Shown: positions 25,357-46,560 of the stretch, in pieces | How positions within the stretch are numbered: position 1 is the first letter of the stretch | Layout: every line of letters begins with the position of its first letter | Assembly (NCBI RefSeq): GCF_009377185.1 | Contig: NZ_VJZC01000007.1 | Coordinates: 1 to 64,000, forward strand | DNA: 64,000 nucleotides | Direction of reading: 5' to 3' | DNA from: Streptomyces spongiae | GTDB lineage: Bacteria; Actinomycetota; Actinomycetes; Streptomycetales; Streptomycetaceae | The notes under the pieces: generated by a model | The model's input: only the letters and a program-made list of their open reading frames with translations | What the model was told of the DNA's origin: nothing | The model's database searches: none | Translations under genes and position numbers: made by a program

Positions 25357-25453
25357 TGGGCGGCTCCGGAGGAGGGGCGGCGCGGCGCGCGAGCGGGTCC
25401 ACGTACCCGGAAGGCCGCGGGACAACACACGAGTGCGATGCGGGAGGTCCCTG

Positions 25454-29095: not shown

Positions 29096-29115
29096 GCGGA
29101 AGGGAGACGAGGCAG

Positions 29116-30348
29116 GTGACCCGTACGCATCCGATGCCCGAGGACTTCCGGGCCGAGGCCCGCCGCTGGCTGTCGGGCGTGGCGGCCCACCGAGGCCCAC
29201 AGGGACAGGAGTGGGGCAGCGGCGACGATTCCGTGGCCGTGTTCGAGAACTGGACCGAGGACGAGGAGCGTGCCCGCACCGAGCACATCCGGGCCTGGGA
29301 GCGCACCCGTTACGACCAGGGCTGGGGCGCCCTCGGCTGGCCCGGGGAGTACGGCGGCCGCGATCTTCCCGCGCACTACGAGCAGCTGTACCGCGCCGAG
29401 GAGGCCGCCTTCGACGTGCCCCGGCGCACCGAGGTCTTCCCAGTCACGCAGCAGCTCGTGGCCCCGGCGATCCGGGTCTGGGGCACCGAGGAACAGAAGC
29501 GGCGCTGGCTGCGCCCCATGCTCCGTACCGACGAACTCGCCTGCCAGCTCTTCTCGGAGACCGAGGCGGGCTCCGACCTGGCCGCCGTCCGCACGAGGGC
29601 GGTCCGCGACGCGGACGGCGACGGCTGGGTGCTGCGCGGCCACAAGGTCTGGACGTCCGGTGCCCGGGTCGCCACCTGGGGAGTGGCCGTCTGCCGCACC
29701 GACCCGGACATGCCCAAGCACGCGGGCATCACGGTCTTCCTGGTCCGGATGGACGCTCCCGGCGTCACGGTACGGCCGATCCGGCAGATGACCGGGGGTT
29801 CCAGCTTCAACGAGGTCTACCTGGACGACGTCCGGGTCCCCGACGCCGACCGGCTCGGCCCGGTCGGCGAGGGCTGGCGGGTGACGCTCACCGTGCTCGC
29901 CGCCGAGCGGCTGGACTCCGGCACGCTCGGCCTGGACAACGCGGACCGTGCCCTCGACCTGGCGCGGCACCTGCCCCGGCCGCTCACCGGAGGCGAACAG
30001 CAGCAGGCGGGCGACCTGTTCGTCCGCACCCTGGTCCAGCGGCTCATCGGCCTACGCGTCACGGCGGCCCTGGTCGCCGGCCGTGAACCCGGCGCGGAGG
30101 CGTCCGTCGGCAAGCTCTACGCCACCGCGACCATGCGCGCCACCACCGACCTCGTACAGCAGCTCCTGGGGCCGCGCCTCGCCGCGGACACGGGGGAGTG
30201 GGGCACCTTCGCCTGGACCGAGCATCTGCTCGGCGCCCCTGGCTACAGCATCGCCGGCGGCAGCGACGAGATCCAGCGCAACATCCTCGCCGAGCGGGTG
30301 CTGGGACTGCCCAAAGAGCCCAAGCAGACGGAGGAGGGAGCGCGTTGA
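29116..30348 (+). CDS. Acyl-CoA dehydrogenase
   Basis: A 410-residue dehydrogenase of the FadE17/FadE29-like group. LGWPGEYGGRDLPAHYEQLYRAEEA is followed by CQLFSETEAGSDLAAV (substrate/FAD loop), the middle beta domain, and a C-terminus with GAPGYSIAGGSDEIQRNILAERVLGLPKEP. GTG 29116 has GGGAG 9 bases upstream; an ATG at 29134 is an alternative. Probably forms a heteromeric enzyme with the small subunit at 25454. Confidence 0.88.
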   Translation: MTRTHPMPEDFRAEARRWLSGVAAHRGPQGQEWGSGDDSVAVFENWTEDEERARTEHIRAWERTRYDQGWGALGWPGEYGGRDLPAHYEQLYRAEEAAFDVPRRTEVFPVTQQLVAPAIRVWGTEEQKRRWLRPMLRTDELACQLFSETEAGSDLAAVRTRAVRDADGDGWVLRGHKVWTSGARVATWGVAVCRTDPDMPKHAGITVFLVRMDAPGVTVRPIRQMTGGSSFNEVYLDDVRVPDADRLGPVGEGWRVTLTVLAAERLDSGTLGLDNADRALDLARHLPRPLTGGEQQQAGDLFVRTLVQRLIGLRVTAALVAGREPGAEASVGKLYATATMRATTDLVQQLLGPRLAADTGEWGTFAWTEHLLGAPGYSIAGGSDEIQRNILAERVLGLPKEPKQTEEGAR

Positions 30349-31310
30349 GCACGCTCACCGAGGTAACACGACTGGCGGGGCGGGTGCGCGAACGGCTTGC
30401 CGCACTCCATCCCGGCGAGCCGCTCGGCGACCTGAAGACACTGCCCGGCGGCCACTCGGGCCTCACCTACTCCATCACCGCGGGCCACGCCTCGTACGTC
30501 GTCAAGGCCGTGCCGCCCGGGCAACGGCCGGTCGGCCGGAACGACGTCCTGCGCCAGGCCCGCGTCCTGCGCGCGCTCGCCGGCTCGGTGCCGGTGCCGG
30601 GTGTCGTCGCCGTGGACGAGCCTCAACCGGCCTGGTTCGCCATGGAGTTCGTGACCGGCGAGGCCATCGAGCCAGTCCTCGACGATCACCGGCTCGACGC
30701 GAGTCTGTGCCGTACGAGAATGCTGGCGCTGGCGGGCGTCCTTCGCGGGCTGCACAGGACCGAGGCCCGGGTTCCGGGGGCGTCGGAGCCCCTCGACCCG
30801 ACCGCCGAGCTCGACCGGTGGAGCCGCACCATGCGTGCCGTACCGCCCGAACTTCGCCCTGGAGCAGAGGAGTTGGTCGAGCGGCTTGCGGCGAGCGTGC
30901 CCGCGGGCCTGCCTCCGGTCCTGACCCACGGCGATTTCCGGCTGGGCAACGCCCTCTGCGTGGGAGCGCGCCCCGCCGCCGTCATCGACTGGGAGATCTG
31001 GGGCCTCGGCGACCCGCGCACCGACCTCGGCTGGTTCCTGCTCTTCACCGACCACCGCAACTTCCCCCAACTGGGCCGTGAGATCCCGGGCCTGCCCACC
31101 GAGGAAGAGCTGCTGGCCGCCTACCTCGACGGCCACCCCGCACCGCCCGCCTTCGACTGGTTCCGCGCCATGGCCCGCACCAAGATGGCCGCGATCATGG
31201 GCCACAACCTGCGCCGCCACCGCGAGGGCGCACACCACGACCCGGACCAGGAGCGGCTGCCACCGACCATCGCGGCGATGATCCGCACGGCACTGGACAT
31301 CCTCGGCTGA
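30345..31310 (+). CDS. APH-fold kinase (ACAD10/11 N-domain type)
   Basis: A 321-residue aminoglycoside-phosphotransferase-fold kinase. The N-lobe has GGHSGLTYSI and YVVKAVPPG (Lys for ATP); catalytic loop LTHGDFRLGNAL and metal-binding VIDWEIWGLGDPRTDLG are intact. TTG start 30345 overlaps the previous stop, after GGAGGGAG. In animal ACAD10/11 a kinase domain of this fold is joined to a dehydrogenase-like domain, and LvaA, the kinase of bacterial levulinate degradation, phosphorylates 4-hydroxyacyl-CoA. The next gene is an ACAD11-like protein, so the same two-step phosphorylation and phosphate elimination is inferred, not antibiotic resistance. Confidence 0.85.
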   Translation: MSTLTEVTRLAGRVRERLAALHPGEPLGDLKTLPGGHSGLTYSITAGHASYVVKAVPPGQRPVGRNDVLRQARVLRALAGSVPVPGVVAVDEPQPAWFAMEFVTGEAIEPVLDDHRLDASLCRTRMLALAGVLRGLHRTEARVPGASEPLDPTAELDRWSRTMRAVPPELRPGAEELVERLAASVPAGLPPVLTHGDFRLGNALCVGARPAAVIDWEIWGLGDPRTDLGWFLLFTDHRNFPQLGREIPGLPTEEELLAAYLDGHPAPPAFDWFRAMARTKMAAIMGHNLRRHREGAHHDPDQERLPPTIAAMIRTALDILG

Positions 31311-31352
31311 GCGAGCGAGACGCAAGCCGGCGACACGCAAGGAGCGGCAGGC

Positions 31353-32567
31353 ATGGACTTCGAGCTCTCCCCGAGGGCGCGCGAACTGCACGCGCGCATG
31401 GGCGCGTTCATGGAGGAGTACGTCCTCCCGGCCGAGGCCGTCTACGACCGGCAGCTCGCCGAGGGAGACGACCCTCATCAACAGCCCCCCGTCATGCGCG
31501 AGTTGCAGGAGAAGGCCCGAGCCGAGGGCCTGTGGAACCTCTTCCTCGCCCACGGCGACTGGGGCGCCGGCCTGACCAACCTCGACTACGCCCCGCTCGC
31601 CGAGCTGGCCGGACGGTCCGTCATGGGCCCCGAGGTGTTCAACTGCTCCGCCCCCGACACCGGCAACATGGAGCTGCTCGCCCTCTACGGCACCCCCGAG
31701 CAGCAGGACCGCTGGCTGCGGCCCCTGCTGACGGCCGGCATCCGGTCCTGCTTCGCGATGACCGAACCCGAGGTCGCCAGCTCCGACGCGCGCAACATCC
31801 GTACCCGGATCACCCGCGACGGCGACTCCTACCTGGTCAACGGACACAAGTGGTACACGTCCGGGATCCTCGACCCCGACTGTGCGCTGATCATCCTCAT
31901 GGGCGTGAGTGACCCGGACGCCGAGACGTACCGGCAGCAGAGCATGATGCTGATTCCGCGCGACACCCCCGGCATCACGGTCCTGCGCGACCTGCCCATG
32001 TTCGGCTACACCGACCGCTGCGGCCACGGCGATGTCCTCTTCGAGGACGTACGCGTACCCGTCGGCAACCTCCTCGGAGGCGAGGGGGAGGGATTCGCCC
32101 TCGCCCAGGGGCGGCTCGGGCCCGGCCGGATGCACTACGCCATGCGCGCCGTCGGCTTCGCCGAGCGGGCGCTGGACCTGATGTGCCGCCGGGCCCTGAG
32201 CCGGATCGCCTTCGGCGGCCCCCTGTCCGACCAGGGCGTCGTCCGCGAATGGATCGCCCGCAGCCGCATCGAGATCGAGCAGCTCCGGCTGCTGGTCCTG
32301 AAGTCGGCCTGGCTGATGGACACACGGGGCAACGCCGCCGCCCGCACCGAGGTGGCCGCGATCAAGGTGGCCGCGCTGGAAGTGGCGCACCGCGTGGTGG
32401 ACCGGGCGGTCCAGGCCCATGGAGCGGCGGGCGTAAGCGACGACACCGTGCTGGCCCGGCTGTACGCGATCACCAGGGCACTGCGTATCGCGGACGGGCC
32501 TGACGAGGTCCATCTGCGCACGGTGGCCCGGCGGGAGCTCGGCAAGTATCCGAAGGAGCAGGTGTGA
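31353..32567 (+). CDS. ACAD10/11-type acyl-CoA dehydrogenase-like protein
   Basis: A 404-residue protein strikingly like the dehydrogenase domain of animal ACAD11: CFAMTEPEVASSDARNI, GHKWYTSG, MFGYTDRCGHGDVLFEDVRVP, QGRLGPGRMHYAMR and AITRALRIADGPDEVHL. In that group the domain is proposed to convert phosphorylated 4-hydroxyacyl-CoA to enoyl-CoA rather than perform plain dehydrogenation. It follows the APH-type kinase by 42 bp, with AAGGAG before the ATG, so kinase and eliminase are adjacent but unfused. Confidence 0.87.
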   Translation: MDFELSPRARELHARMGAFMEEYVLPAEAVYDRQLAEGDDPHQQPPVMRELQEKARAEGLWNLFLAHGDWGAGLTNLDYAPLAELAGRSVMGPEVFNCSAPDTGNMELLALYGTPEQQDRWLRPLLTAGIRSCFAMTEPEVASSDARNIRTRITRDGDSYLVNGHKWYTSGILDPDCALIILMGVSDPDAETYRQQSMMLIPRDTPGITVLRDLPMFGYTDRCGHGDVLFEDVRVPVGNLLGGEGEGFALAQGRLGPGRMHYAMRAVGFAERALDLMCRRALSRIAFGGPLSDQGVVREWIARSRIEIEQLRLLVLKSAWLMDTRGNAAARTEVAAIKVAALEVAHRVVDRAVQAHGAAGVSDDTVLARLYAITRALRIADGPDEVHLRTVARRELGKYPKEQV

Positions 32568-33358
32568 ACGGACACGTACCGCACGTACCGCAGGTTCTGC
32601 ACGGCCGGGTCGCCGTGATCACGGGTGGCTCGCGCGGGATCGGTCTGGGTATCGCCCGGGCGTACCGGGAGGCGGGCGCCCATGTGGTGATCGCCGCCCG
32701 CAAGCCGGACGGGCTCACCGAGGCGCGCGAGGAACTCCTGCGGGTCAAGGGCGACGGCGACGTCCACGAGGTGGTCGCCAACGCCGGGGAGCCCGAACAG
32801 GCCGAGCGGTGCGTCGAGGAGACCCTGGCGCGGTTCGGCCGTCTCGATGTCCTGGTCAACAACGCCGCCACCAACCCGTACATGGGCGACCTGCTCGATC
32901 TGGATCTGCCGCGCGCGGAGAAGACCGTACGGGTCAACCAGTACGGGATGATCGCCTGGACGCGGTACGCGTGGCGGGCGTGGATGTCCGAGCACGGGGG
33001 AGCGGTGGTCAACATCGCCTCCGTCGGCGGCATCGTCGTCGACCCGCACATCGGCTGGTACAACGCCACCAAGGCGGCGATGCTGCACCTGACCCGTCAG
33101 CTCGCCTACGAACTCGGCCCGAGGGCGCGGGTGAACGCGATCGCGCCCGGCCTGATCAAGACCGAACTGGCCAGGGCCGTATGGGAGCCGAGGGAGCCGA
33201 TCCTCACCGCCCGGCTGCCACTGCGCAGACTGGGCACCGTCGAGGACGTGGCCAACGCGGCGCTGTTCCTGGCGTCCGACGCCTCGTCGTGGATGACCGG
33301 CCAGACGCTGGTGCTGGACGGCGGCGCCACGGTGCTGCCGATCGGGGTGGACGAGTGA
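32564..33358 (+). CDS. Short-chain dehydrogenase/reductase
   Basis: A 264-residue classical SDR. TGGSRGIG cofactor loop followed by AARKPDG (NADP-type), VNNAATNPYMG, and the catalytic YNATK. The PYMG after NNAA resembles SDRs acting on CoA esters (DHRS4/FabG-like). Overlaps both neighbours by four bases (GTGA), so it is co-translated with the ACAD11-like gene and the next SDR. Confidence 0.9.
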   Translation: MNGHVPHVPQVLHGRVAVITGGSRGIGLGIARAYREAGAHVVIAARKPDGLTEAREELLRVKGDGDVHEVVANAGEPEQAERCVEETLARFGRLDVLVNNAATNPYMGDLLDLDLPRAEKTVRVNQYGMIAWTRYAWRAWMSEHGGAVVNIASVGGIVVDPHIGWYNATKAAMLHLTRQLAYELGPRARVNAIAPGLIKTELARAVWEPREPILTARLPLRRLGTVEDVANAALFLASDASSWMTGQTLVLDGGATVLPIGVDE

Positions 33359-34134
33359 GCGCCTTGTACGAGCCGGCGACCACCGATCTCTTCTCCCTGC
33401 GCGGCCGTACGGCGGTGGTCACGGGCGCGTCCTCGGGCCTGGGCGCCCGGTTCGCGGCCGTACTCGCCGGGGCGGGTGCCACCGTCTTCGCCGCGGCCCG
33501 GCGCCTGGACCGGCTGAAGGAGCTGGCGGACACCGAACCCCGCATCCACCCGGTCGGCTGCGACGTCGCGAGCGACGAGGACCGCGTACGGCTGACGGAG
33601 ACCGCGCTCACCGCCACCGGACGGATCGACGTCCTGGTCAACAACGCGGGTGCCCCCGGCGCGGTACGGGCCGAGGACGAGAGCGCCGACGCCTTCGCCG
33701 AGGTGCTCGCGGTCAACCTCGTCGCGCCTTTCCACCTCGCCCGGCTGATGGCCGAGGCTGCCCCGAGCGGCTACACCAGATCGGTGGTGAACGTCTCGTC
33801 CGTCCTCGGGCTCGTCTCCGGCGCGCCCCTGGGAGGCGCGTCCTATGCGGCCTCGAAAGCGGGCCTGATCGGACTCACCCGCGAACTCGCCGGCCAGTGG
33901 GGCCCGGCAGGGATACGGGTCAACGCCCTCGCCCCCGGCTGGTTCCGTTCGGAGATGACCGAGGACCTCTTCGCCGACGACCGCTCCCGCCGATGGGTCC
34001 AACGCGGCACCATGCTGGGCCGGGGCGGCGAACCGGGCGAACTGGACGGAGCGCTGCTCTTCCTCGCCTCGGACGCCTCCTCCTACTGCACGGGACAGGT
34101 GCTCACCGTCGACGGCGGATGGACGGCACGATGA
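33355..34134 (+). CDS. Short-chain dehydrogenase/reductase
   Basis: A 259-residue classical SDR. TGASSGLG, AARRLDRL (NADP-type Arg), VNNAGAPG and catalytic YAASK. GTG 33355 overlaps the previous stop; its own stop overlaps the next ATG. Two SDRs in a row suggest successive oxidations at different positions or a heteromer. Confidence 0.9.
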   Translation: MSALYEPATTDLFSLRGRTAVVTGASSGLGARFAAVLAGAGATVFAAARRLDRLKELADTEPRIHPVGCDVASDEDRVRLTETALTATGRIDVLVNNAGAPGAVRAEDESADAFAEVLAVNLVAPFHLARLMAEAAPSGYTRSVVNVSSVLGLVSGAPLGGASYAASKAGLIGLTRELAGQWGPAGIRVNALAPGWFRSEMTEDLFADDRSRRWVQRGTMLGRGGEPGELDGALLFLASDASSYCTGQVLTVDGGWTAR

Positions 34135-34964
34135 GCGTGACCGTGAGTTTCCACGACGACGGCGTGGCCCACGTCGAGTTGTGCCGGGAGAAGGCGGGCA
34201 ACGCGATCGACCTGGCCACGGCCACGGGACTGCTGGAGGCCGCCCGGACGTGCGAGAGCACTGACGGTGTTCGGGCGGTGCTGCTCACCGGACGGGGACG
34301 CTCCTTCTGCGTCGGCGGTGACCTGCGGGAGTTCGTCCGGTTCTCCGGCGACAGGCTGGCCGCACACCTCGTGGAGGTCACGGACGCGCTGCACGGCGCC
34401 CTGCGGGTGTTCGCCGGGTTGGACGCGCCGCTGGTGGCTGCCGTGCAGGGCGCCGCCGCGGGCGCCGGTCTCGGACTCGCCGCGGCGGCCGACCTGACGC
34501 TCGCGGCATCCGACGCCACCTTCGTCGCCGCCTACACGGGCATCGGCTACTCCCCGGACGCCGGGGTCAGCTGGTCGCTGCCTCGGCTCGTCGGCCGCAA
34601 GCGGGCCCTGGACCTGCTACTGACCAACCGGCGGATCACGGCGCCCGAGGCGGCGGAGATGGGGCTGGTCAGCAGGGTGGTCGAGGCGGACCGGCTGGCC
34701 GATACGGCCGAGGAGACCGCGGTGGCGCTCGCCCGGGGAGCCACCGGCGCGTTCGGCGCCACCCGGAGGCTCGTAGCGGAGGGGCTGTCCGCAGGACTCG
34801 ACGCACACCTCGACGCGGAGGCCCGTCACTTGACCGAGGCGGCGGTCTCGGCCGAGGGTCGCGAGGGGGTGGCCGCCTTCCTCGCCGGGCGCAGCCCGGA
34901 TTTCGCCGGGGTGGGCCGTACTCGGCCACAGTCCACAGCGCGATTCGTAACCGAGTTCAAGTAG
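34131..34964 (+). CDS. Enoyl-CoA hydratase/isomerase, PaaG-like
   Basis: A 277-residue crotonase. FCVGGDLREF and GAAAGAGLGLAAAADLTLA shape the oxyanion hole; YTGIGYSPDAGVSWSLPR has Asp in place of the hydratase Glu, as in PaaG-like isomerases. LTNRRITAPEAAEMGLVSRVV follows. It ends the plus-strand operon 60 bp before the TetR gene. The expected action is isomerisation of an unsaturated acyl-CoA from the elimination step. Confidence 0.88.
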   Translation: MSVTVSFHDDGVAHVELCREKAGNAIDLATATGLLEAARTCESTDGVRAVLLTGRGRSFCVGGDLREFVRFSGDRLAAHLVEVTDALHGALRVFAGLDAPLVAAVQGAAAGAGLGLAAAADLTLAASDATFVAAYTGIGYSPDAGVSWSLPRLVGRKRALDLLLTNRRITAPEAAEMGLVSRVVEADRLADTAEETAVALARGATGAFGATRRLVAEGLSAGLDAHLDAEARHLTEAAVSAEGREGVAAFLAGRSPDFAGVGRTRPQSTARFVTEFK

Positions 34965-35024
34965 GTCTACCCTCAGACAACCGATCGGCGGCAGGTGCCG
35001 GTCGCGGAGCGCAGGGGAGTGACG

Positions 35025-35651
35025 ATGGCGAGGGCGCGGATCGTGGATCCGGACCAGGGGCCCAGGTCCAAGCGGGCGGCCATTCTGGATGCCGCGGTCG
35101 AGTACTTCGGCGAGACCGGCTACGAGACCACCAAGTGGTCGGACGTGGCCGACCGCGTCGGTATCGGGCAGACCGCGCTCTACCACTACTTCGAGTCCAA
35201 GGCGCACTGCCTGCTCACGATCATGCGCCTGGAACTCCAGCGCTCCCACGACATGTTCACCGAGGCCACGGCCGACACGTCGGATCCCGTCGAGGCACTG
35301 CGGGCCGGGGTCCGCTCGGCCTTCGCGGTGTCGGAGCAGGAGATCCGGCAGATGCGCGTGCTGCAGGCCAACATGTCGCTGCTGGCCACGCCGCGAAAGT
35401 CCAAGCGCGAGGAGACCGAGCGGGTCGCGGCGCGTCAGCTGGTGCAGATGGTGGAGCGGGACTGGACGAACCTGCTGGTCCGCGGCATGGCGAAGGGCGC
35501 GTTCCCGGTGCGGGACGCCCATATGCTCGGGCTGACCGTGCTCGGCATGATCGTCAGCGTATGGCGGTGGTACCGGCCGACCGGGGCGATCCCGCTGCCG
35601 GAGATCAGTGACCTGATCGAGGGGTGTGTGGTGCGGATGGTCGGGGAGTAG
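35025..35651 (+). CDS. TetR-family regulator, candidate regulator of region 3
   Basis: A 208-residue TetR/AcrR-type regulator. The DNA-binding domain is AAILDAAVEYFGETGYETTKWSDVADRVGIGQTALYHYF (residues about 15-55), and its C-terminal ligand domain resembles those of KstR2/FadR-like CoA-sensing members in length. ATG 35025 follows CAGGGGAG. It lies between the two plus-strand gene groups of region 3, whose promoters carry a TGAA-N5-TTCA palindrome; it is the only regulator in that block and thus the likely binder, probably responding to a CoA thioester. Confidence 0.85.
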   Translation: MARARIVDPDQGPRSKRAAILDAAVEYFGETGYETTKWSDVADRVGIGQTALYHYFESKAHCLLTIMRLELQRSHDMFTEATADTSDPVEALRAGVRSAFAVSEQEIRQMRVLQANMSLLATPRKSKREETERVAARQLVQMVERDWTNLLVRGMAKGAFPVRDAHMLGLTVLGMIVSVWRWYRPTGAIPLPEISDLIEGCVVRMVGE

Positions 35652-35719
35652 CGCCGGAAACGGGGGTGTGCTCCGCCTCTTGTGGTGGGCGGGGCACCCA
35701 CCCTATCCTCAAACTGAAC

Positions 35720-35733
35720 TGAACTCAGGTTGA
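35720..35733. promoter_or_regulatory. TGAA-type operator, site C (imperfect)
   Basis: TGAACTCAGGTTGA, partly matching the region 3 palindrome, with a further TGAACT half just upstream (35715-35720). It precedes the SnoaL-like gene at 35760 and sits where the 35760-39613 operon would start. Confidence 0.5.
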
Positions 35734-35759
35734 TGTCCGGTCTGGAAGGGGCGAAGACC

Positions 35760-36110
35760 ATGGTCCTTCGCGAGTACATGGCCCGAATGGACGGTCAGGA
35801 CCCGGAGAAGGCCCTGGAGCTCCTGGAGCCCGGGTTCCGCTTCCTCATCGCCCTGCCGAGCGGCGAGCGGACCGGCAACTCGAAGGCCGACTTCGCCGCG
35901 TACATCGCCGGCCGGCAGGCCGTGGACCGGGTGCACGAGATCGTGCGGTCCTCCGTGGACCAGGACCTCGAAACCGTCTACGGCTTCGTGGTGGACGGCG
36001 GCACGACGACCGGGGCGTTCCTGTCGGCCGCCGTCATCTCGCCCTCCGGCCTGATGGCGCGCTACCAGTCCTTCTTCACGCCTGCCTTCCACCTCGTCGA
36101 CCGGCCCTGA
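35760..36110 (+). CDS. SnoaL-like/NTF2-fold protein
   Basis: A 116-residue NTF2-like protein (MDGQDPEKALELLEPGFRFLIALPSGERTG, typical cone-fold start). ATG 35760 is chosen since GGAAGGGG lies 8 bases upstream and the operator-like site C is then upstream of the gene rather than inside it. The fold serves isomerases, dehydratases and cyclases; catalytic residues cannot be assigned. It begins an operon with a second such protein and an EthD protein. Confidence 0.72.
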   Translation: MVLREYMARMDGQDPEKALELLEPGFRFLIALPSGERTGNSKADFAAYIAGRQAVDRVHEIVRSSVDQDLETVYGFVVDGGTTTGAFLSAAVISPSGLMARYQSFFTPAFHLVDRP

Positions 36111-36126
36111 GCAGGAGGCACAGCAG

Positions 36127-36516
36127 ATGCCCGCGACACAGACGCAACCGTCGACGCCCGCGCCCTTCCTGAGCGCGTGGTTCGCGCTCCTCGACAGTCC
36201 GGACGCGTCCCGGATCCTCGATCTGATCAGCGACGACTTCTCGTTCTCCATCCTCTTCTCCACCGGCGGCGACGGCGCCACCGACTTCCACGGCGGCCGG
36301 GCCGAGATGGAGGGCTACCTCGCGCAGCGCGAGCAGGGGACCCGGACCCATCACCTGCTGACCGCCAGCGCCCACGGCCGCGACGAACTGTTCCTCGGCG
36401 AGGTCCGCCGCTCCGGCGTGCCCGAGGCGACCTTCGTGGCCTCGGCACGGCTCACCCCGTCCGGCAAGGTCCGCCGGTTGCTCATCGGACGCTCGCCCGC
36501 GGTGCTCTTCGCGTGA
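36127..36516 (+). CDS. SnoaL-like/NTF2-fold protein
   Basis: A 129-residue NTF2-like protein (WFALLDSPDASRILDLISDDFSFSILF, then GGRAEMEGYLAQRE). AGGAGG lies upstream. It probably pairs with the protein at 35760, since many NTF2-like enzymes are hetero- or homodimers. Substrate unknown; a dehydratase or isomerase role in the same pathway is inferred from position. Confidence 0.72.
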   Translation: MPATQTQPSTPAPFLSAWFALLDSPDASRILDLISDDFSFSILFSTGGDGATDFHGGRAEMEGYLAQREQGTRTHHLLTASAHGRDELFLGEVRRSGVPEATFVASARLTPSGKVRRLLIGRSPAVLFA

Positions 36517-36555
36517 CCCACTCACTCTCACTCGGAATCTCACTCGGGAGGTGCC

Positions 36556-36876
36556 ATGTACAACCTCATCCTGCTGGCCGCACGGCCGCCCGAGTGGACC
36601 CATGAGCGGTTCATCGACTGGTGGCGGGGCGAACACGCCGAACTGACCAAACGGTTGCCCGGACTGCGCTCCTGGCGGCACACCGAGATCGACGCGGCCC
36701 TGGAGCCGCGCTCCGAGGGATGGGACGGGCTCTCGGTCCTCGGGTTCGACACCGCCGAGGACCTGCGCAAAGCCCTGGACAGCCCGGAGTGGGCGGCGGC
36801 CGTCGCCCAGGTCGGCGACATGCGGGGGCGCCGGATCGCCGTCATGGGAGACGAGCGGGAGATGTACGCGGGCTGA
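36556..36876 (+). CDS. EthD-domain protein
   Basis: A 106-residue dimeric alpha/beta-barrel protein of the EthD family (MYNLILLAARPPEWTHERFIDWWRGEHAEL, and VLGFDTAEDLRKALDSPEW). GGGAGGTG precedes the ATG. EthD proteins accompany monooxygenases and ring-modifying enzymes in degradative clusters, but their reaction is often undefined. It is followed by a three-copy repeat before the ligase gene. Confidence 0.82.
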   Translation: MYNLILLAARPPEWTHERFIDWWRGEHAELTKRLPGLRSWRHTEIDAALEPRSEGWDGLSVLGFDTAEDLRKALDSPEWAAAVAQVGDMRGRRIAVMGDEREMYAG

Positions 36877-36890
36877 CCGCGGCCGACGGG

Positions 36891-36966
36891 GCGAGGAACT
36901 TTCGCGAGTCGGTGCGAGGAACTTTCGCGACACGGGGCGAGGAACTTTCGCGAGACGAGGCGAGGA
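36891..36966. repeat. 17-bp unit repeated three times in a leader
   Basis: GCGAGGAACTTTCGCGA occurs at 36891-36907, 36914-36930 and 36937-36953, each separated by six variable bases (23-bp period), with a partial fourth copy at 36960-36966. It fills the gap between the EthD stop and the ligase ATG at 36984. Each unit contains the palindrome TCGCGA. Confidence 0.9.
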
Positions 36967-36983
36967 AGCGGGCGGGATGCGGG

Positions 36984-38528
36984 ATGCGACAGACAGTGCG
37001 GGAGTTCCAGCAGCGGGCAGAACAGAGCGACTTCACAGCCGTCATCGACGACCACGGACACCACTTGGCCCGTGACCTCCTCGACCGCGCGGTCGCCCTC
37101 GCGGAGGCCATGACCCCTGACGGGACCCCGGGCGGCACGGTCATGACGCAGGCCGACAACTCGTGGCGTACGGTCGCGGCCACCCTGGCCGTGGGGATGA
37201 CCGGCGGCGTACTCGCCGTGGTGAACCGGCACACCACGAGCGCGGAGTTCCAGGCGGCCCTGGACGACATCCGGCCGGACGTCGTCATCGCCGAGCCGTC
37301 GGCGCTGCGGGAGTGGCACGGGCCGGGCCTGCCGACCGCGTGGACGGCCGAGGCGCTCGACGGCTGGACCGTCCTGTCCGCCCGCGGCCCGAGGGACGTC
37401 ACCCGCTGGAACGGCGGTGCCGTCATCGGCTTCACCTCCGGTTCCACCGGGCGCCCCAAGGGGGTCGTCCAGTCGGAGTCGGCTCTGCGCTACGCCTGCT
37501 CCCGCACCCGCGACATCAACGGCCTGCGGCCGGGCGACGCGGTCGCCGCCCTCGTCCCGCTGTCCTCCACCGCCGCGTACTGCTTCGGAGTCTGCATGTC
37601 CCTCATGCTCGCCGGGCCGCTCGTGCTGACGGGCAGGTGGGACCCCGGCGCCGTGCTGGAGCGGATGGCCGAGCACCACGCCCGGTGGACGATGTGCGTA
37701 CCGACCATGGCCCTGCAGATGGGCTCGGCGGCGGCCGGCTCGCGGGTGCTCGAAGGAGTGCGCTCCATCACAGTGGGCGGCGGCCCCATGGACCGGGGCG
37801 CCCTGGCCCGGGCCGAGCGGTCGCTCGGTACGAGGATCCTGCGGGTCTTCGGCATGTCGGAGTGCCTCGGACACACCTCACCACGGCCCGAGGATCCGGA
37901 GGACATCCGGCTCGGCCGGGACGGCCGCCCCTTTCCCGGCACCGAACTGAGGGCGGTCACCGCCGACGGAACCGTCCTGGGCCCCGGGGAGACGGGACAG
38001 GCCCAGGTCCGGGGCCCCTCCCTCTTCCTCGGCTACGCCCGCGACGGCGAGGTGGAGCCGCCGGCCCTCACCCCGGACGGTTTCCTCCCCACCGGTGACC
38101 TGCTGATGACCGCTCACGACGGCACCGTCACCGTCATGGGCCGGGAGAAGGACGTCATCATCCGCGGCGGCCGCAACCTCGACATCACCGAGATCGAACG
38201 CGCCGTCGCCAGCCACCCGAAGGTGGCCCGGGTGTGCGTCGCACCGGTGCCGGACCCCCTGCTCGGCGAACGCCCGGCCGTGCTCGTCGTGGCCGAGGAC
38301 GACACCGGCGCTCTCCACGTCGACCTCGACCTCGACGAGATCACCGGACACCTGGAACGCGTCGGCCTGTCCAAGGCGAAGTGGCCCGAGTTCGTCTTCA
38401 CCGTGGGCGAGTTGCCGCAGACCAGGGTCGGCAAGCTCGACCGCGGGGGCGCCCGGGAACTCGCCCGCGACCTGCACGCGCGACTCTCACATCAGCGACC
38501 CGAACCACCTCAGCTGGGAGATGTATGA
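36984..38528 (+). CDS. Acyl-CoA/AMP-forming ligase
   Basis: A 514-residue adenylate-forming ligase. VIGFTSGSTGRPKGVV (P-loop), RVFGMSECLGHTSP, DGFLPTGDLLM, GREKDVIIRGGRNLDITEIE and LPQTRVGKLDR with the final Lys. The cyclohexanecarboxylate/3-oxocholanoate-type ligases share this length. ATG 36984 follows a GGAAGCGGGCGGG purine run and lies just after the repeat. Its stop overlaps the MBL gene (ATGA). It is the only ligase in region 3, hence the likely entry step that loads the substrate on CoA. Confidence 0.9.
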   Translation: MRQTVREFQQRAEQSDFTAVIDDHGHHLARDLLDRAVALAEAMTPDGTPGGTVMTQADNSWRTVAATLAVGMTGGVLAVVNRHTTSAEFQAALDDIRPDVVIAEPSALREWHGPGLPTAWTAEALDGWTVLSARGPRDVTRWNGGAVIGFTSGSTGRPKGVVQSESALRYACSRTRDINGLRPGDAVAALVPLSSTAAYCFGVCMSLMLAGPLVLTGRWDPGAVLERMAEHHARWTMCVPTMALQMGSAAAGSRVLEGVRSITVGGGPMDRGALARAERSLGTRILRVFGMSECLGHTSPRPEDPEDIRLGRDGRPFPGTELRAVTADGTVLGPGETGQAQVRGPSLFLGYARDGEVEPPALTPDGFLPTGDLLMTAHDGTVTVMGREKDVIIRGGRNLDITEIERAVASHPKVARVCVAPVPDPLLGERPAVLVVAEDDTGALHVDLDLDEITGHLERVGLSKAKWPEFVFTVGELPQTRVGKLDRGGARELARDLHARLSHQRPEPPQLGDV

Positions 38529-39613
38529 CGACCCGTTTCGACCGTGGACAGTGGGCACAGAGCGGAGCCCAGACCGTACGGCCCGGGGTGCACCGCGTGC
38601 CGCTCCCGCTGCCGGAGGACGGACTGCGGGCCGTCAACGTCTACGTGCTGGAAGAGGACGACGGCCTGGTGCTGATCGACGGCGGCTGGTCGATCCCCGA
38701 GTCCCGCAAGGCACTGGAGGACGCACTGGCCGGTCTCGGCCACGACCTCGCCGAGATCACCCACATCCTGGTCACCCACATCCACCGCGACCACTACACC
38801 CAGGCCGTGGATCTGCGCCGCCTGCTCGGCTCCCGCGTCTACCTCGGCTCCGGTGAGCGGCGCGGCCTGGAACTGCTCGGCGAGCTGCACACCGACCAGC
38901 CCGTCGGATCGCTGCGGACGCTGCGCCGGGCAGGCGCCCTCGAACTGGCGGACCGCATCGAAGCGATGGACCACGGCGGCTTCGACCCCGCCGTATGGGA
39001 GGCGCCCGACCGCTGGCTGGAGGCCGAGGAACTGCGGTTCGGGGACCGGACCCTGCGGGTCGTACCGACACCCGGCCACACCCGGGGCCATGTGGTCTAC
39101 CTCGACGAGGCACGGGGACTGCTGTTCTCCGGGGACCATGTGCTGCCGCACATCACCCCGTCCATCGGCTTCGAGCTGGGCGACGGCCCCGGACTGCCGC
39201 TGGGCGACTACCTGACCTCACTGCACCTCATGACCACGCTCGCCGATGCGACCCTGCTGCCCGCGCACGGACCCGTCGGTGACAGCGTCCACCGCAGGGC
39301 CGCGGAGCTGCTGGCCCACCACGACGACCGGCTCGCGGAGACGCTCGCCGTCCTCGGCGCGCGGACCCTCGACGCCCACGCCGTGGCCCAGGAGCTGGGG
39401 TGGACCCGGCGGAAGGTGCCGTTCGAGGACCTGAACCCGTTCAACCAGATGCTGGCCGTCAACGAGACAGCGGCCCACCTGGACGTCCTCGTGGCCCGCG
39501 GCGAAGCCAGCCGCGCCTGCGAGGACGACGTGAACCGGTACGCACGGTGCGTCCCCGGCGCCGGGGTCGGCACCGACGACGGCGCATCGGTCCCGACCCA
39601 GGCGTCTGTGTAA
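38525..39613 (+). CDS. MBL-fold metallo-hydrolase
   Basis: A 362-residue metallo-beta-lactamase-fold protein. Metal ligands are visible in THIHRDHYTQA (HxHxDH), PTPGHTRGH, SGDH and LLPAHG. The C-terminal helical part (RRAAELLAHHDDRLAETLAVL) matches the winged-helix extension of LACTB2/flavohydrolase types. Coupled to the ligase, it could open a lactone or hydrolyse a CoA ester; a lactonase would fit the 4-hydroxyacyl route proposed here. Ends two bases before the convergent SDR gene. Confidence 0.85.
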   Translation: MTTRFDRGQWAQSGAQTVRPGVHRVPLPLPEDGLRAVNVYVLEEDDGLVLIDGGWSIPESRKALEDALAGLGHDLAEITHILVTHIHRDHYTQAVDLRRLLGSRVYLGSGERRGLELLGELHTDQPVGSLRTLRRAGALELADRIEAMDHGGFDPAVWEAPDRWLEAEELRFGDRTLRVVPTPGHTRGHVVYLDEARGLLFSGDHVLPHITPSIGFELGDGPGLPLGDYLTSLHLMTTLADATLLPAHGPVGDSVHRRAAELLAHHDDRLAETLAVLGARTLDAHAVAQELGWTRRKVPFEDLNPFNQMLAVNETAAHLDVLVARGEASRACEDDVNRYARCVPGAGVGTDDGASVPTQASV

Positions 39614-39615
39614 CC

Positions 39616-40368
39616 TCAGCGCGCCGTCCAGCCCCCGTCGACGTAGAGCTCCGAGCCGGTCATGAAGCCCGCGTCGTCCGAGGCGAGGAACGCCACCGCG
39701 GCCGCCACCTCCTCGGTCGTGCCCAGCCGGCCGAGCGGGGTGCCCTCGATCATCGCGGTCAGCCGGGGCGTGCCCCGCCACAACTCCCGGGACAGGGGCG
39801 TCTCGATGAAGCCGGGATGCAGCGAGTTGACCCGCACACCGCGCTTGCCCCAGTGCAGCGCGGCGTTCTTGGTCATCAGCCGTACGGCGCCCTTGGCCGC
39901 GTGGTACGAGAACTGCGCGCCGAAGCCGCCGACCGTACCGAAGATCGAGGCGATGTTGACGATGGAGCCGCCGCCGGAGCGCTCGATGGCCGGGCCGCCG
40001 TGCTTCATGCCGAGCCACACGCCGGTCTGCGTCACGCCGATCACCCGGTCCCAGGTCTCCTGGGTCTCGGTCTCCACGGTGCCCATCGCGGCGATCCCCG
40101 CGTTGTTGACCAGCACCGACAGACCGCCCAGGCGGTCGGTGACCTGGGCGACGAGCGTCTCCCAGGCCGTCTCGTCGGTGACGTCCAGGCGCAGCCCCAC
40201 GGCACCGCCCGGCAGCTCACCGGCCAGTTTCTCGCAAGTCTCCGAGTCGAGATCGGTGACCACGACGGTCGCGCCCTCGGCGGCCAGCCGACGCACGATC
40301 GCCTCCCCGATGCCTCCGGTGGCACCGGTCACCAGCGCCACCTTCCCCGTGAGCCGGGTTTCCCTCAC
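39616..40368 (-). CDS. Short-chain dehydrogenase/reductase
   Basis: A 250-residue classical SDR similar in layout to 3-alpha/20-beta-hydroxysteroid dehydrogenases: TGATGGIG, VTDLDSE (NAD-type Asp), VNNAGIA, catalytic YHAAK, and SSNDGWT-like ending LYVDGGWTAR. It is the last gene of the minus-strand operon that starts with the ABC importer, separated from the APH-like gene by 27 bp. Confidence 0.9.
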   Translation of the reverse strand: MRETRLTGKVALVTGATGGIGEAIVRRLAAEGATVVVTDLDSETCEKLAGELPGGAVGLRLDVTDETAWETLVAQVTDRLGGLSVLVNNAGIAAMGTVETETQETWDRVIGVTQTGVWLGMKHGGPAIERSGGGSIVNIASIFGTVGGFGAQFSYHAAKGAVRLMTKNAALHWGKRGVRVNSLHPGFIETPLSRELWRGTPRLTAMIEGTPLGRLGTTEEVAAAVAFLASDDAGFMTGSELYVDGGWTAR

Positions 40369-40395
40369 CGCTCCTCACATCCCTTCTCGTGGGTC

Positions 40396-41448
40396 TCAGG
40401 TGGGCCGGACATCGACCGACAGGCCGGAGCGCAGCAGCGCGGGCACCGCCGAACCGACCCGGTCGAAGCCGGGGCCGACGGTGCGCCCGGCGCGGTGGCG
40501 GGCATGGACGCCCTCCGCGATGACCGCCAGCTTGAAGTAGCCGAGGGCCCGGTGGAAGGGCAGCGCGGAGACATCGCGGCCGGACCGTACCGCGTACCGT
40601 CGCGTCAGCTCCCCTGCGGAGAGGAAGCCCGGGTTGGCCGCCGGGACGTGCCCCTGGCCGAGGACCGGCTCGCACGCCGGGTCCCAGTAGACGAGGAGCA
40701 GGCCGAGGTCGGCGAGCGGATCGCCCAGCGCGGCCATCTCCCAGTCGACGATCGCGGCGATCCGCCCGGGATCGCCGTCGTCGAGGATGACGTTGTCGAG
40801 CCGGTAGTCCCCGTGCAGGACCGCAGGGAGGGCACCGTCGTCCCGCACCATGGGCAGTGCGCGTACCAACTTCCCGTGCAGCGCGTCCAGTTCGGGCAGC
40901 TCGCGGGTGGCGACCAGGTCCCACTGGCCGCGCCACCGCCGCACCTGCCGCTCCAGGTACCCGGCCGGCCGCCCGAACCCGCCGAGCCCGATCCCGTACG
41001 GGTCGACGGTGTGCAGCGCGGCCAGTTGGTCGACCAGCGCCTCGGAGCAGCGCCGCGCGTCCTCGGCGGACACCTCGGCCGCCTGCTCGCCGTCCCGCAG
41101 CACGGTCCCGTCGACGAAGGAGACGACGGTGAACGGTACGCCGATCACGGACTCGTCGGCGCAGGAGACCACGGTCCGCGGCACCGGGACCCCCGTGCCG
41201 GCCAGAGCGGCCATGACGCGGTACTCGCGGTCCATGTCGTGCGCGGTCGGCGTGAGCGTGCCCAGCGGCGGCCTGCGCAGCACCCAGCGGTGCGTGCCGT
41301 CGGTGACGAAGTACGTGAGATTCGAGCGCCCGCCGAGCAGCGGACGGACCTCCAGCGGACCCGCGCAGTCCGGGACCTCACGCTCGAAGAAGAGGCCCAG
41401 CGCCCGCAGGTCCACCCCGGCCACGGTGGGGTCACCGGTGGCCGTCAC
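40396..41448 (-). CDS. APH-fold kinase, second copy (ACAD10/11 N-domain type)
   Basis: A 350-residue kinase-fold protein: LLGGRSNLTYFVTDG (glycine-rich loop), WVLRRPPLGTLTP (ATP Lys region), HGDYRLDNVILD (catalytic loop) and VDWEMAALGDPLADLG (metal site). These features match the APH domain of ACAD10/11 and of bacterial LvaA-like kinases. GTG 41448 overlaps the stop of the adjacent ACAD10/11-like gene by GTGA. It is the second kinase of this type in region 3, in opposite gene order to the first pair, so probably acts on a different chain length or position. Confidence 0.87.
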   Translation of the reverse strand: MTATGDPTVAGVDLRALGLFFEREVPDCAGPLEVRPLLGGRSNLTYFVTDGTHRWVLRRPPLGTLTPTAHDMDREYRVMAALAGTGVPVPRTVVSCADESVIGVPFTVVSFVDGTVLRDGEQAAEVSAEDARRCSEALVDQLAALHTVDPYGIGLGGFGRPAGYLERQVRRWRGQWDLVATRELPELDALHGKLVRALPMVRDDGALPAVLHGDYRLDNVILDDGDPGRIAAIVDWEMAALGDPLADLGLLLVYWDPACEPVLGQGHVPAANPGFLSAGELTRRYAVRSGRDVSALPFHRALGYFKLAVIAEGVHARHRAGRTVGPGFDRVGSAVPALLRSGLSVDVRPT

Positions 41449-42650
41449 CGCACCGCGCCCTGTCGCTCGCGTGCGGCCCGGACCGCGCGTTTGGCGATGG
41501 CCCACCGGTGGGTCTCCGACGGCCCGTCGTACACACGGAACGGCCGGACCTCCCGGTAGAGGGCGGCCAGCGGGGTGTCCTCCGAGATGCCGAGCGCCCC
41601 GCAGATCTGGACCGCCCGGTCCACTACCCGGCCCACGGCCTCGGACACGAAGGTCTTCGCGACGGAGGTGAGCTGGGCGCCGGGCCTGCCCTGGTCGAGT
41701 TCCCAGCAGGCACGCCAGAGCACCGCCCGGCTCGTCTCGATGTCGATCTCCGAGTCGGCCAACTGCTGCTGCACCATGCCGAGTTCCGCCAGAGGGCCCC
41801 CGAAGGCCGTACGTCGCGCAGCGCGGTCCAGGGCGATGTCCTGCGCCCGGCGGGCCACTCCGAGCCACCGCATGCAGTGGGTCAGCCTTGCGGGCCCGAG
41901 ACGCACCTGCGCGTACGCGAATCCCTTGTCGACCTCGCCGAGCACCGCCTCGTCGGGTACCTCGCAGTCGTCGAAGGCGAGTTCGCTGTGACCGGCGAAC
42001 AGGGCCCGGTCGAGGGTGGAGATGTTCCTGACCGCCTTCATGCCCGGATTGTCGGAACCGACCAGGAACATGGTGGCCCCGCCCGGGTCGCCGGGCTCGC
42101 CGCTGGTGCGCGCCATGCAGATCGCGAACGCGGCTCCGTCGGCGCCGCTGATGAACCACTTGCGGCCGTTGATCCGCCAGCCACCCGGGGCCCGGACCGC
42201 CGTCGTGGCCAGCGCCCGCGGGTCGGAGCCGGCCCCGGGGGAGGGCTCGGTCATCGCGAAGCACGACCGTGTCTCCCCGGCCGCGAGAGGCGCGAGAAAA
42301 CGGTTCTTCTGTTCCTCGGTGGCGACCGCTTCGAGGAGATGCATGTTGCCCTCGTCGGGCGCGGCGCAGTTGAGGGCCAGGGGGCCCAGCAGCGAGTATC
42401 CCGCGGCCTCGAAGACGACCGCCTGACCCCGCAGATCCAGGCCGAGCCCGCCCCACCGGTGCGAGACATGGGGAGCGAACACTCCTGCCGCCCGGGCCGC
42501 CTCCTGCAAGGCGCGCCGCAGTGGTTCGGGGCCCGCGTGCACGTCCCCGTGGCAGCCCTCCTCCGCCGCCAGAACCGTGTCCCGGACCAGGTCGGTGGTC
42601 CGCCGCGCGATGTCGGCCACCTGCCGGTCGATGTCGAACTCGATGGCCAT
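41445..42650 (-). CDS. ACAD10/11-type acyl-CoA dehydrogenase-like protein, second copy
   Basis: A 401-residue protein of the ACAD10/11-like group: RSCFAMTEPSPGAGSDP, RKWFISG, VRLGPARLTHCMRWLGVARRAQD, and RVYDGPSETHRWAIAKR at the end. Start 42650 has GAGAGGGG upstream. It is less like animal ACAD11 than the copy at 31353 (AGSDP in place of ASSDA). Coupled to the second APH kinase, it likely performs the same elimination on another substrate. Confidence 0.87.
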   Translation of the reverse strand: MAIEFDIDRQVADIARRTTDLVRDTVLAAEEGCHGDVHAGPEPLRRALQEAARAAGVFAPHVSHRWGGLGLDLRGQAVVFEAAGYSLLGPLALNCAAPDEGNMHLLEAVATEEQKNRFLAPLAAGETRSCFAMTEPSPGAGSDPRALATTAVRAPGGWRINGRKWFISGADGAAFAICMARTSGEPGDPGGATMFLVGSDNPGMKAVRNISTLDRALFAGHSELAFDDCEVPDEAVLGEVDKGFAYAQVRLGPARLTHCMRWLGVARRAQDIALDRAARRTAFGGPLAELGMVQQQLADSEIDIETSRAVLWRACWELDQGRPGAQLTSVAKTFVSEAVGRVVDRAVQICGALGISEDTPLAALYREVRPFRVYDGPSETHRWAIAKRAVRAARERQGAVR

Positions 42651-42675: not shown

Positions 42676-43485
42676 TCAGTCCTTGACCCCGCGCCACGCG
42701 AGCGCGCCACCGTCGATGACGTACGAGCTGCCGGTGATGAACGCGGCGTCGTCCGAGGCCAGGAAGCAGGCAAGCCTCGCCACCTCCTCCGGCCGTCCGA
42801 GCCGCCGGACGAGTTGCGGCGCGGTCAGCTCCCGTTCCATGGCGTCGCGGTCGTCGGCGGCCTCGAAGAAGTCCCGTGCCAGGGGCGTCTCGATGACACC
42901 GGGGCAGAAGCAGTTGCAGCGCACCGGCGCCAGGTCGACGGCCGTGACCTTGGTGAGGTGGATGACACCCGCCTTGGTGGTGCCGTAGACCGGAGCCAGG
43001 GGGAAACCGGTGAGCCCCGACACCGAGGCCGTGTTGACGATCGCGGGACCGCGCGTGGAGTGCCGCAGGTGTGGCGCGGCGAACTTCGTCGTGAGCCAGA
43101 CGGCCTTGAGGTTGACCTCGTAGACCGCGTCCCAGACCTCTTCGGGCAGCGTGTCGACCGCGCGGTCCTCCGGCCGGTCCACCAGCGCGGATTCGATCAC
43201 GCCGGCGTTGTTGACGAGGACGTCCAGCCCGCCGAACCGTTCCGCCGTCCGGGCCACCATCGCCTCGATCCGGTCACGGTCGCGCAAGTCGCACACGATC
43301 GCCTCCGCCTCGGCCCCGGCGGTGCGTACCAGGTCGGCCGTACCCTTCGCGGTCGCCTCGTTCCGGTCGGCGACCGCGACCGCCGCCGCGCCCTGCCGCG
43401 CCATCTCCACGGCGATCGCCTGTCCGATACCCTGGCCGGCGCCCGTGACGAGGACCGTCTTCCCGTCGAGCGAGCCCATGCCCAT
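42676..43485 (-). CDS. Short-chain dehydrogenase/reductase
   Basis: A 269-residue classical SDR: TGAGQGIG, ADRNEAT, VNNAGVI, catalytic YGTTK. An extra segment ESALVDRPEDRAVDTLPEE extends the region before the active site. ATG 43485 is six bases from GGGGGGA; a second ATG at 43479 is possible. It follows the ABC permease by 14 bp, tying transport to catabolism in one transcript. Confidence 0.88.
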   Translation of the reverse strand: MGMGSLDGKTVLVTGAGQGIGQAIAVEMARQGAAAVAVADRNEATAKGTADLVRTAGAEAEAIVCDLRDRDRIEAMVARTAERFGGLDVLVNNAGVIESALVDRPEDRAVDTLPEEVWDAVYEVNLKAVWLTTKFAAPHLRHSTRGPAIVNTASVSGLTGFPLAPVYGTTKAGVIHLTKVTAVDLAPVRCNCFCPGVIETPLARDFFEAADDRDAMERELTAPQLVRRLGRPEEVARLACFLASDDAAFITGSSYVIDGGALAWRGVKD

Positions 43486-46456: not shown

Positions 46457-46560
46457 GGGGGACTCCTCACATCCAAAGATCAGGTGAGAGTGGGCACCCG
46501 TCGGCGTGGGTGCCCACACTGCTGTGCACGGTTCCTGGCAGAGGCCGGCCGCCACTGCCG

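Follow-up and report, generated by a model that had tools for sequence, protein, structure and literature searches.

A predicted hydroxy acid or lactone catabolic cluster of Streptomyces with two divergent kinase-ACAD modules, one of them probably accessory

In animals, a kinase and a dehydrogenase fused into one protein strip hydroxyls from fatty acids; the mammalian ACAD10 and ACAD11 combine kinase and ACAD for the ATP-dependent conversion of 4-hydroxyacyl-CoA to 2-enoyl-CoA (PMC12440821, PMC11342911; PDB 8v3u, 2wbi). The window, the whole 64,000-nucleotide stretch of DNA analyzed here, comes from a Streptomyces-type bacterium and holds a predicted catabolic cluster for a hydroxy acid or lactone with two such pairs: module A (kinA-acadA, 30345-32567, plus strand) and module B (kinB-acadB, 40396-42650, minus strand). 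Why does one cluster carry both?

Kinase and ACAD occupy separate reading frames in both modules, unlike the fused animal ACAD10/11; kinB and acadB overlap by 4 bases, and acadA follows kinA after a gap of 42 bases. Both kinases match the Pfam APH family (113 bits for kinA, 173.7 bits for kinB), and their partners each match three ACAD domains. The two unfused sets of the original prediction are present, all four genes at the coordinates it gave, with phosphate-elimination signature residues in both ACADs, and domain searches confirm the ligase, MBL-fold hydrolase, crotonases, SDRs, and ABC importer it had placed around them (Table 1); the small ORFs give weak SnoaL matches only (Pfam). A described system with this two-module layout, which the prediction held to be lacking, was likewise not found in the literature searched.

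Table 1. Coordinates of the genes and operator-like sites in the window
Feature	Position	Strand	Basis or remark
SDR0, first gene of operon A	24553..25356	+	domain search
ACADx2, ordinary ACAD, IpdE2/PimD-like	25235..26710	+	ORF given, start not fixed
ECH1, crotonase, EchA19-like below cut-off	26710..27498	+	
DUF35/ChsH2_C OB-fold protein	27504..27866	+	PF01796 70.3 bits; start approximate
SCP2-type thiolase/aldolase (predicted)	27866..29095	+	Thiolase_C_1 112 bits; lipid-transfer-protein models below cut-off; start approximate
ACADx1, ordinary ACAD, PimC-like	29092..30348	+	start approximate
kinA, APH-fold kinase, module A	30345..31310	+	APH 113 bits; TTG start, not proven
acadA, ACAD of module A, inside ACAD10/11 clade	31353..32567	+	alignment and tree
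SDR1 (32564-33358) and SDR2 (to 34134)	32564..34134	+	domain search
ECH2, crotonase	34131..34964	+	start approximate
TetR-family regulator	34995..35651	+	domain search
Pair of SnoaL-like proteins (one near threshold, the other below it) plus EthD-domain protein	35730..36876	+	
AMP-forming acyl-CoA ligase	36951..38528	+	domain search; start approximate
MBL-fold metallo-hydrolase, HIHRDH motif	38555..39613	+	start approximate
SDR3	39616..40368	-	domain search
kinB, LvaA/ACAD11-like kinase, module B	40396..41448	-	9o56 and ACAD11 matches; GTG start
acadB, ACAD of module B, clade sister to ACAD10/11	41445..42650	-	alignment and tree
SDR4	42676..43470	-	start approximate
ABC importer	43500..47727	-	permease ORF 43500-45332; ATPase within 45245-46807; solute-binding protein 46561-47727
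FAD_binding_2 oxidoreductase	49138..50505	-	similar to 3-ketosteroid dehydrogenase models, none reaching cut-off
Operator-like palindrome before operon A	24516..24528	+	
Operator-like palindrome, exact, before ECH1	26665..26677	+	
Operator-like palindrome before SnoaL-EthD-ligase-MBL genes	35715..35727	+	
Operator-like palindrome upstream of minus-strand operon (importer to module B)	47910..47922	+	

The phosphate-elimination signature (R626, H634 within HCMR, R637, and D753) is defined by mouse ACAD11 mutants, with Ala or Leu replacement of the pocket His among the most disruptive mutations (PMC12440821). acadB contains the complete set, and its relatives (the 80 best from a list of at least 592) keep R626, H634, and R637 in 80/80 and D753 in 79/80. 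acadA contains R626, R637, and D753 with Tyr at position 634 (HYAMR), a substitution present in 30/30 orthologs as well as in three relatives from other genera; the same 30 orthologs all keep R626 and R637. The catalytic Asp D753 lies within ADGPDE in acadA and YDGPSE in acadB. R626, His or Tyr at 634, and D753 are each absent from all 47 ACAD rows of ordinary or reference type, a set that includes alternative starts and overlapping loci, and ACADx1 relatives show no signature residues among the rows compared.

The ACAD tree splits signature from ordinary ACADs (98/96) and resolves an ACAD10/11-type clade (99/94), with acadA in a 13-row clade alongside ACAD11 and 4hr3 (100/100) and acadB in its own sister clade (100/99); the two proteins share 37% identity. 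The closest solved relatives of acadA are 4hr3 (E 3.9e-126) and ACAD11 (E 2.7e-125), and those of acadB are 4hr3 (E 7.1e-59) and ACAD11 (E 1e-57), followed by the ordinary ACAD 1ukw (3.2e-51), with ACAD11 2wbi as the best match of the acadB structure model (Z 48.0). By signature, both ACADs are predicted to be of the phosphate-eliminating type.

Among solved structures, kinB matches 9o56 (E 6.2e-67) and ACAD11 (E 2.4e-51), and kinA reaches only E 4.5e-12 against ACAD11. D220, N225, and the metal-binding Asp are present in both kinases, D220 and N225 in all 163 collected kinase rows from four groups. kinB additionally keeps R86, E87, and R176, and the αC Glu (E87) and CoA-contacting R176 are found in 34/34 close relatives. 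kinA carries a β3 Lys and an αC Gln where the LvaA/ACAD11 type has Arg and Glu, a K/Q pair present in 40/40 orthologous rows and 9/9 kinA2 rows; it is without E87 (Gln in 40/40) and R176 (a G/A/S column in 40/40). A small kinase tree, whose outgroups sit on very long branches and whose deep order does not resolve, unites kinA and kinA2 in one clade (100/99). Judged from residues and matches, kinB is an orthodox LvaA/ACAD11-like kinase and kinA a lineage apart. The two modules deviate from the ACAD10/11 norm in opposite ways, A in its separate kinase lineage and B in its sister-clade ACAD. The original prediction had foreseen neither kinA outside the LvaA/ACAD11 lineage, nor acadA without the pocket His, nor acadB outside the ACAD10/11 clade. 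An aminoglycoside-resistance role was rejected: NCBIfam resistance models score 43.9 (kinA) and 28.1 (kinB) against a 205-bit cut-off, and both kinase genes are tied to ACAD partners.

Compared with ACAD10/11, acadA nests with ACAD11 and kinB matches the ACAD11 kinase domain, whereas here the proteins are separate, acadB falls in a sister clade, kinA comes from another lineage, and acadA carries HYAMR. A bacterial counterpart is the Pseudomonas putida levulinate operon with LvaA and LvaC (Rand et al. 2017, via PMC12440821 and PMC11342911). Shared with lva are an unfused kinase and an ACAD-family phosphate eliminase near an acyl-CoA ligase, with two modules here versus one there; the LvaC signature is complete in acadB and, in acadA, complete but for H634 and C635, the LvaA and LvaC sequences lying outside the rows compared. 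To our knowledge, the lva operon is without the DUF35-thiolase, MBL, ABC importer, and ACADx1/x2 content seen here. Steroid side-chain aldolases/thiolases work with DUF35 proteins in the Ltp2-ChsH2 and Sal-Shy types; similarly, a DUF35 OB-fold gene adjoins the SCP2-type thiolase, a putative aldolase, in operon A. The genes annotated in the window include none identified as a steroid-ring gene.

The 25-hydroxysteroid kinase of Sterolibacterium denitrificans (PDB 9ft5, 9fsg) activates a tertiary steroid alcohol in free form for phosphate elimination; its lyase is given as unknown in PMC8449060, with none encoded nearby. kinA resembles it in APH-type fold and in predicted catabolic alcohol activation for phosphate elimination, although their sequences match only at E 1.3e-4. 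The AF2 model of kinA (pLDDT 92.2) finds 3dxp as its best PDB match (Z 28.0), above the steroid kinase (Z 24.5, tied with 3ats at 25.1); the ACAD11 kinase domain is not among the 50 structure matches listed, which does not speak against a relationship.

The pairing exceeds chance: in 30/30 genus genomes with a kinA ortholog, the matched parts of kinA and acadA are separated by 17-188 bases, and 60 of the best 80 loci place a kinase no more than 300 bases from the acadB relative. Crossed pairing of acadA with kinB was rejected: acadA sits by kinA in clusters where no kinB adjoins, and therefore pairing within each operon stands. In 20 genomes, kinA and acadB share a contig at a distance of 9.4-13.3 kb; ACADx1, ABC, and ADHz, approximate frames with stops, serve as synteny markers only. 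Where acadB lacks a neighboring kinase (20 loci), a PPDK-like protein occurs in 13, all from one Streptomyces group, a lead toward its standing in for the kinase there; strict replacement is contradicted by two loci (L039 and L054) that have a kinase plus a 37% or 36% relative.

Genome surveys, in which the best 4 to 7 candidates per genome were scored, reveal an uneven distribution of the modules. Module B is present within the cluster in 21/30 sampled Streptomyces-genus carriers, beside SDR3 in every case seen, and absent in 9/30. The core with module A only occurs in those 9 genomes, in Rhodococcus megaplasmids, and in one genome of another family (G462); in the latter two it comprises ligase, MBL hydrolase, importer, DUF35/thiolase, and module A, with HYAMR acadA and K/Q kinase retained together. 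The importer, also found in the B-less Rhodococcus and G462 clusters, was rejected as part of module B; it had no match in the B-less Streptomyces stretches examined. With all first-look acadB candidates scored, 6 of the 9 B-less genus genomes have no acadB-type protein anywhere, and the other 3 encode a relative outside the cluster (73%, 79% partial, and 54%) that might act in trans. acadB-kinB in turn occurs without kinA in another genome (G283) and in most of the best 80 acadB loci. A canonical kinase-ACAD pair is encoded elsewhere in 12/13 genomes checked, which makes modules A and B specialised paralogs.

Because the core exists with A alone in Rhodococcus plasmids, G462, and 9/30 genus genomes, module B is not needed for it and therefore looks accessory, rather than obligatory for a further step on the same intermediate. 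We place a probability of about 0.6 on a conserved core that relies on a single ATP-driven dehydration module (A) and that gained an independently descended B in some members of the Streptomyces genus, widening the substrate range; module B probably admits a second hydroxyacyl-CoA into the shared pathway. The acadA tree and the single-module Rhodococcus clusters favor gain of B over loss from an ancestral two-module cluster. They argue against loss weakly, the B-carrying group having weak support (87/87) in the acadA tree, which because of this value does not settle the matter alone, and the small kinase tree grouping the window kinA with B-less genomes (94/84).

In this core-plus-accessory arrangement, the importer would take up a lactone or hydroxy acid, the MBL hydrolase, a putative lactonase, might open a lactone, and the ligase would yield hydroxyacyl-CoA. 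A kinase would then phosphorylate the 4- (or other) hydroxyl with ATP, and its partner ACAD would expel phosphate with no net oxidation to give 2-enoyl-CoA, for chain shortening by crotonases, SDRs, the ordinary ACADx1/x2, and the DUF35-thiolase pair. Each module may take different hydroxyacyl-CoAs (by position, branching, or stereochemistry), with the module B product feeding downstream enzymes common to module A.

Co-expression of the cluster had been predicted as a single regulon. The palindrome TGAACTNAGTTCA has 7 sites at ≤2 mismatches versus 0.43 expected, a count reached by 0/100 shuffles and partly circular because the motif was first derived from some of the same sites; a looser form lies upstream of SDR0 in 7/8 relatives examined. 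This recurrent putative operator supports a single predicted regulon.

Module A may do something else, because acadA is without the pocket His and kinA without the αC Glu and R176. Only module B would then perform the known chemistry, kinA targeting something else or another position (e.g., a tertiary or 3-/5-hydroxyl) and Tyr-acadA handling a different leaving group or acting as a dehydrogenase. Fixation of HYAMR in every acadA ortholog, the K/Q pair, and the likeness of the kinA model to a tertiary-alcohol kinase (PMC8449060) fit this possible, though on balance unlikely, reading; against it, acadA retains R626, R637, and D753 and clusters firmly with ACAD11 and 4hr3, kinA retains D220 and N225, no genome examined separates the pair, and 3dxp outscores the steroid kinase. 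Doubtful, and offered tentatively, is a second reaction type in the enzyme family, in which B would remove a 4-hydroxyl like ACAD11 and A would perform a chemically distinct ATP-driven dehydration at another position or on a tertiary alcohol.

A linear pathway built on the original prediction of phosphorylation and elimination at two intermediates, in which a dihydroxy or polyoxygenated acid would lose one hydroxyl via A and another via B in obligatory steps on successive intermediates, is consistent with the common cluster, the operator-like motif, and the neighborhood kept on one contig in 20 genomes, and the presence of B in 21/30 carriers, beside SDR3 wherever seen, could reflect a genuine second step there. 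Against it stand the core with module A alone, the 6 B-less genomes devoid of any acadB-type protein, and the acadB-kinB loci without kinA, and we consider it unlikely. Redundant paralogs of the same substrate range, for dosage or for 4R and 4S stereoisomers, are improbable given the deep divergence of both proteins and the canonical pair usually elsewhere in the genome, even though the ACAD10 kinase has a roughly fourfold preference for the R form (PMC11342911), so that two isomer-specific modules would be useful.

These modules divide the predicted bacterial "ACAD10/11 reaction" between two ACAD clades or more, and likewise between at least two lineages of kinase. The His-to-Tyr pocket constitutes a natural experiment, in a core cluster borne on a mobile element, and the modules provide testable partners for the residues that set hydroxyl position. 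Signature and pairing together make annotations of APH as aminoglycoside resistance and of ACAD as plain dehydrogenase suspect.

The window's genome (11.3 Mb) holds a cluster, found in named Streptomyces records at up to 93%, with two pairs of an APH-fold kinase and an acyl-CoA dehydrogenase (ACAD), confirming the two kinase plus ACAD10/11-type modules of the original prediction. An MFS transporter, a luciferase-like monooxygenase and an aldehyde dehydrogenase adjoin the cluster at 50588-54799.

Features of the cluster, with gene order within each operon
Feature	Coordinates	Strand	Content or location
Operon A		plus	SDR0, ACADx2 (ordinary ACAD), ECH1, DUF35, thiolase, ACADx1 (ordinary ACAD), kinA, acadA, SDR1, SDR2, ECH2
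Module A	30345-32567	plus	kinA, acadA
kinA	30345-31310	plus	operon A
acadA	31353-32567	plus	operon A
After ECH2		plus	TetR, two SnoaL-like proteins, EthD, ligase, MBL hydrolase
Operon B		minus	importer, SDR4, acadB, kinB, SDR3
Module B	42650-40396	minus	acadB, kinB
acadB	42650-41445	minus	operon B
kinB	41448-40396	minus	operon B

In mouse ACAD11, R626, H634 and R637 grip the phosphate of 4-phosphoacyl-CoA and D753 serves as the base, and the reaction stalls when these residues are replaced (PMC12440821, PMC11342911). Alignment of the window ACADs to PDB chains revealed R626, R637 and D753 (mouse numbering) in both acadA and acadB, with H634, C635 and M636 also retained in acadB and Tyr634 and Ala635 at the pocket positions of acadA. 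Across 226 partly redundant ACAD rows (216 collected, 10 references), the signature is present in some form in 179 and absent from 47, none of which has Arg626, His/Tyr634 or Asp753. All 80 of the closest acadB relatives have R626, H634 and R637, and 79 of them have D753. The sole exception, from S. violaceusniger (L018:10001-12640), has its acadB frame shifted and lost near the catalytic Asp and no adjoining kinB, a defect that could be decay or an assembly error. Modules A and B are each very probably a kinase-eliminase pair, an identity surer for module B than for module A.

With ordinary ACADs as the root, the ACAD tree sets the signature ACADs apart at 98/96. The signature ACADs divide into an ACAD10/11-type clade (99/94), which contains acadA, and a separate clade (100/99) that includes acadB and spans Actinomycetota, Chloroflexota, Myxococcota and Alphaproteobacteria. 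The features of ACAD11's kinase are conserved in kinB. kinA and its related kinases (kinA2) form their own clade (100/99), carrying Lys/Gln where other kinases have Arg/Glu: 57 kinase rows are K/Q, every one from kinA or kinA2 loci, 104 are R/E and two are unclear. The partner of kinA2 is another ACAD10/11-type ACAD with the pocket motif HHAMR, and among the ACADs compared HYAMR is found only beside kinA, so the pocket residue tracks the kinase lineage. This linked change in module A is the unexpected, testable part. A third kinase lineage (100/100) adjoins acadB relatives in one Chloroflexales MAG and two unassigned MAGs (L072:7849-8907, L078:11188-12162, L082:11050-12027).

The kinA model (pLDDT 92.2, built on a 45-row alignment) matches PDB entry 3dxp best (Z 28.0), followed by 3ats (25.1) and a 25-hydroxysteroid kinase (24.5). 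The acadB model matches ACAD11 (48.0), 4hr3 (47.2) and mouse ACAD11 (46.2), adding little beyond the sequence evidence because ordinary ACADs score close behind (45.2 and below).

Some acadB relatives (72-74%) have no adjoining APH kinase (L105:5695-8978, on contig C244 of the window's own genome; L019-L029, L031, L056) and instead adjoin a PPDK-like protein and a 210-aa protein assigned to no family. The PPDK-like protein, present in 13 of the 20 acadB loci that have no kinase alongside among the best 80 of at least 592 loci, scores 689 bits against TIGR01828 (cut-off 843), and its L021 copy has no Pfam match to PPDK_N. It may serve the same chemistry as an alternative phosphoryl donor; loci L039 and L054 hold a kinase together with a 36-37% PPDK-like relative.

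Of 392 genomes of the Streptomyces genus, 30 have a kinA ortholog with at least 60% identity (29 with at least 73%); six further genomes gave kinA2-type matches only (40-43%; best few candidates per genome scored). Module B accompanies kinA in 21 of the 30, with kinA and acadB 9.4-13.3 kb apart on one contig in 20 and the cluster genes split over two contigs in the other (G401). The remaining nine have no module B in the cluster: SDR4 directly adjoins SDR3 in seven (G022, G152, G213, G207, G339, G206, G397), the contig of G285 ends before the module-B position, and so does the stretch examined in G204. With all candidates scored, six of these nine have no acadB-type protein genome-wide, and three (G213, G397, G204) carry one elsewhere. 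One genome, G283, shows the reverse, acadB-kinB without kinA. In G204 (G204:C2:10563378-10564356), where the cluster shows no module B within the stretch examined, kinA is interrupted, which could reflect decay or an assembly error.

Outside the genus, the core cluster occurs in two Rhodococcus megaplasmids (NZ_CP014942, NZ_CP089607) and in G462, a genome of another family, with kinA (54-56%), acadA (71-72%, HYAMR), ligase, TetR, EthD, MBL, SDR3 and importer; each stretch holds one kinase and one signature ACAD only. acadB is absent from both plasmid records, and G462 has acadB relatives (61% and 46%) on other contigs. Between SDR3 and the importer side, the window's acadB-kinB occupies precisely the spot that is empty in Rhodococcus. 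The two plasmid cores (L215, L216), from wastewater or sludge isolates, have several solute-binding proteins around them. Module-B status has to change twice on the acadA tree; a gain plus a loss in G204 is the simplest history, weakly supported at 87/87. The original prediction had phosphorylation and phosphate elimination used twice, on different intermediates, in one pathway, a reading that the comparison does not support; these clusters with module A and no module B (nine of 30 carriers, the Rhodococcus plasmids and G462), together with the acadA tree, instead support module B as an accessory that joined an earlier core with one module.

Another genus also has a double-module locus: in Prauserella endophytica (L032:6622-12219), a kinase-ACAD pair with HHCMR and an acadB-kinB pair with THCMR stand side by side in divergent order. 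The view that no system of this layout had been described held in the literature searched on ACAD10/11, LvaA/LvaC, levulinate, FadE36/APH, phosphate elimination, lactone catabolism and tertiary-alcohol phosphorylation, where no two-module system was found. The DUF35 and SCP2-thiolase pair, IpdE2/Pim-like ACADs, EchA19-like crotonase and FAD_binding_2 oxidoreductase, all scoring below their equivalog thresholds, suggest that the putative substrate is a branched or cyclic acid, for example a terpenoid acid or one derived from steroids, and the intact HxHxDH motif of the MBL fold would allow lactone opening by the hydrolase.

Of 13 genomes checked, 12 also have, elsewhere, neighbouring kinase and ACAD genes of the canonical type (about 52% to kinB, 59% to acadA). 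The window's own genome carries such a pair on contig C899, along with two further signature ACADs on C160 and C244. The C160 ACAD (32484-34087; L091) is canonical, and its upstream kinase, broken across three reading frames and containing an internal TGA, is either decayed or a sequence error. Because of the canonical pair, general 4-hydroxyacyl-CoA handling is probably covered, and modules A and B are therefore likely dedicated to other acyl groups, as specialised modules and not as redundant copies.
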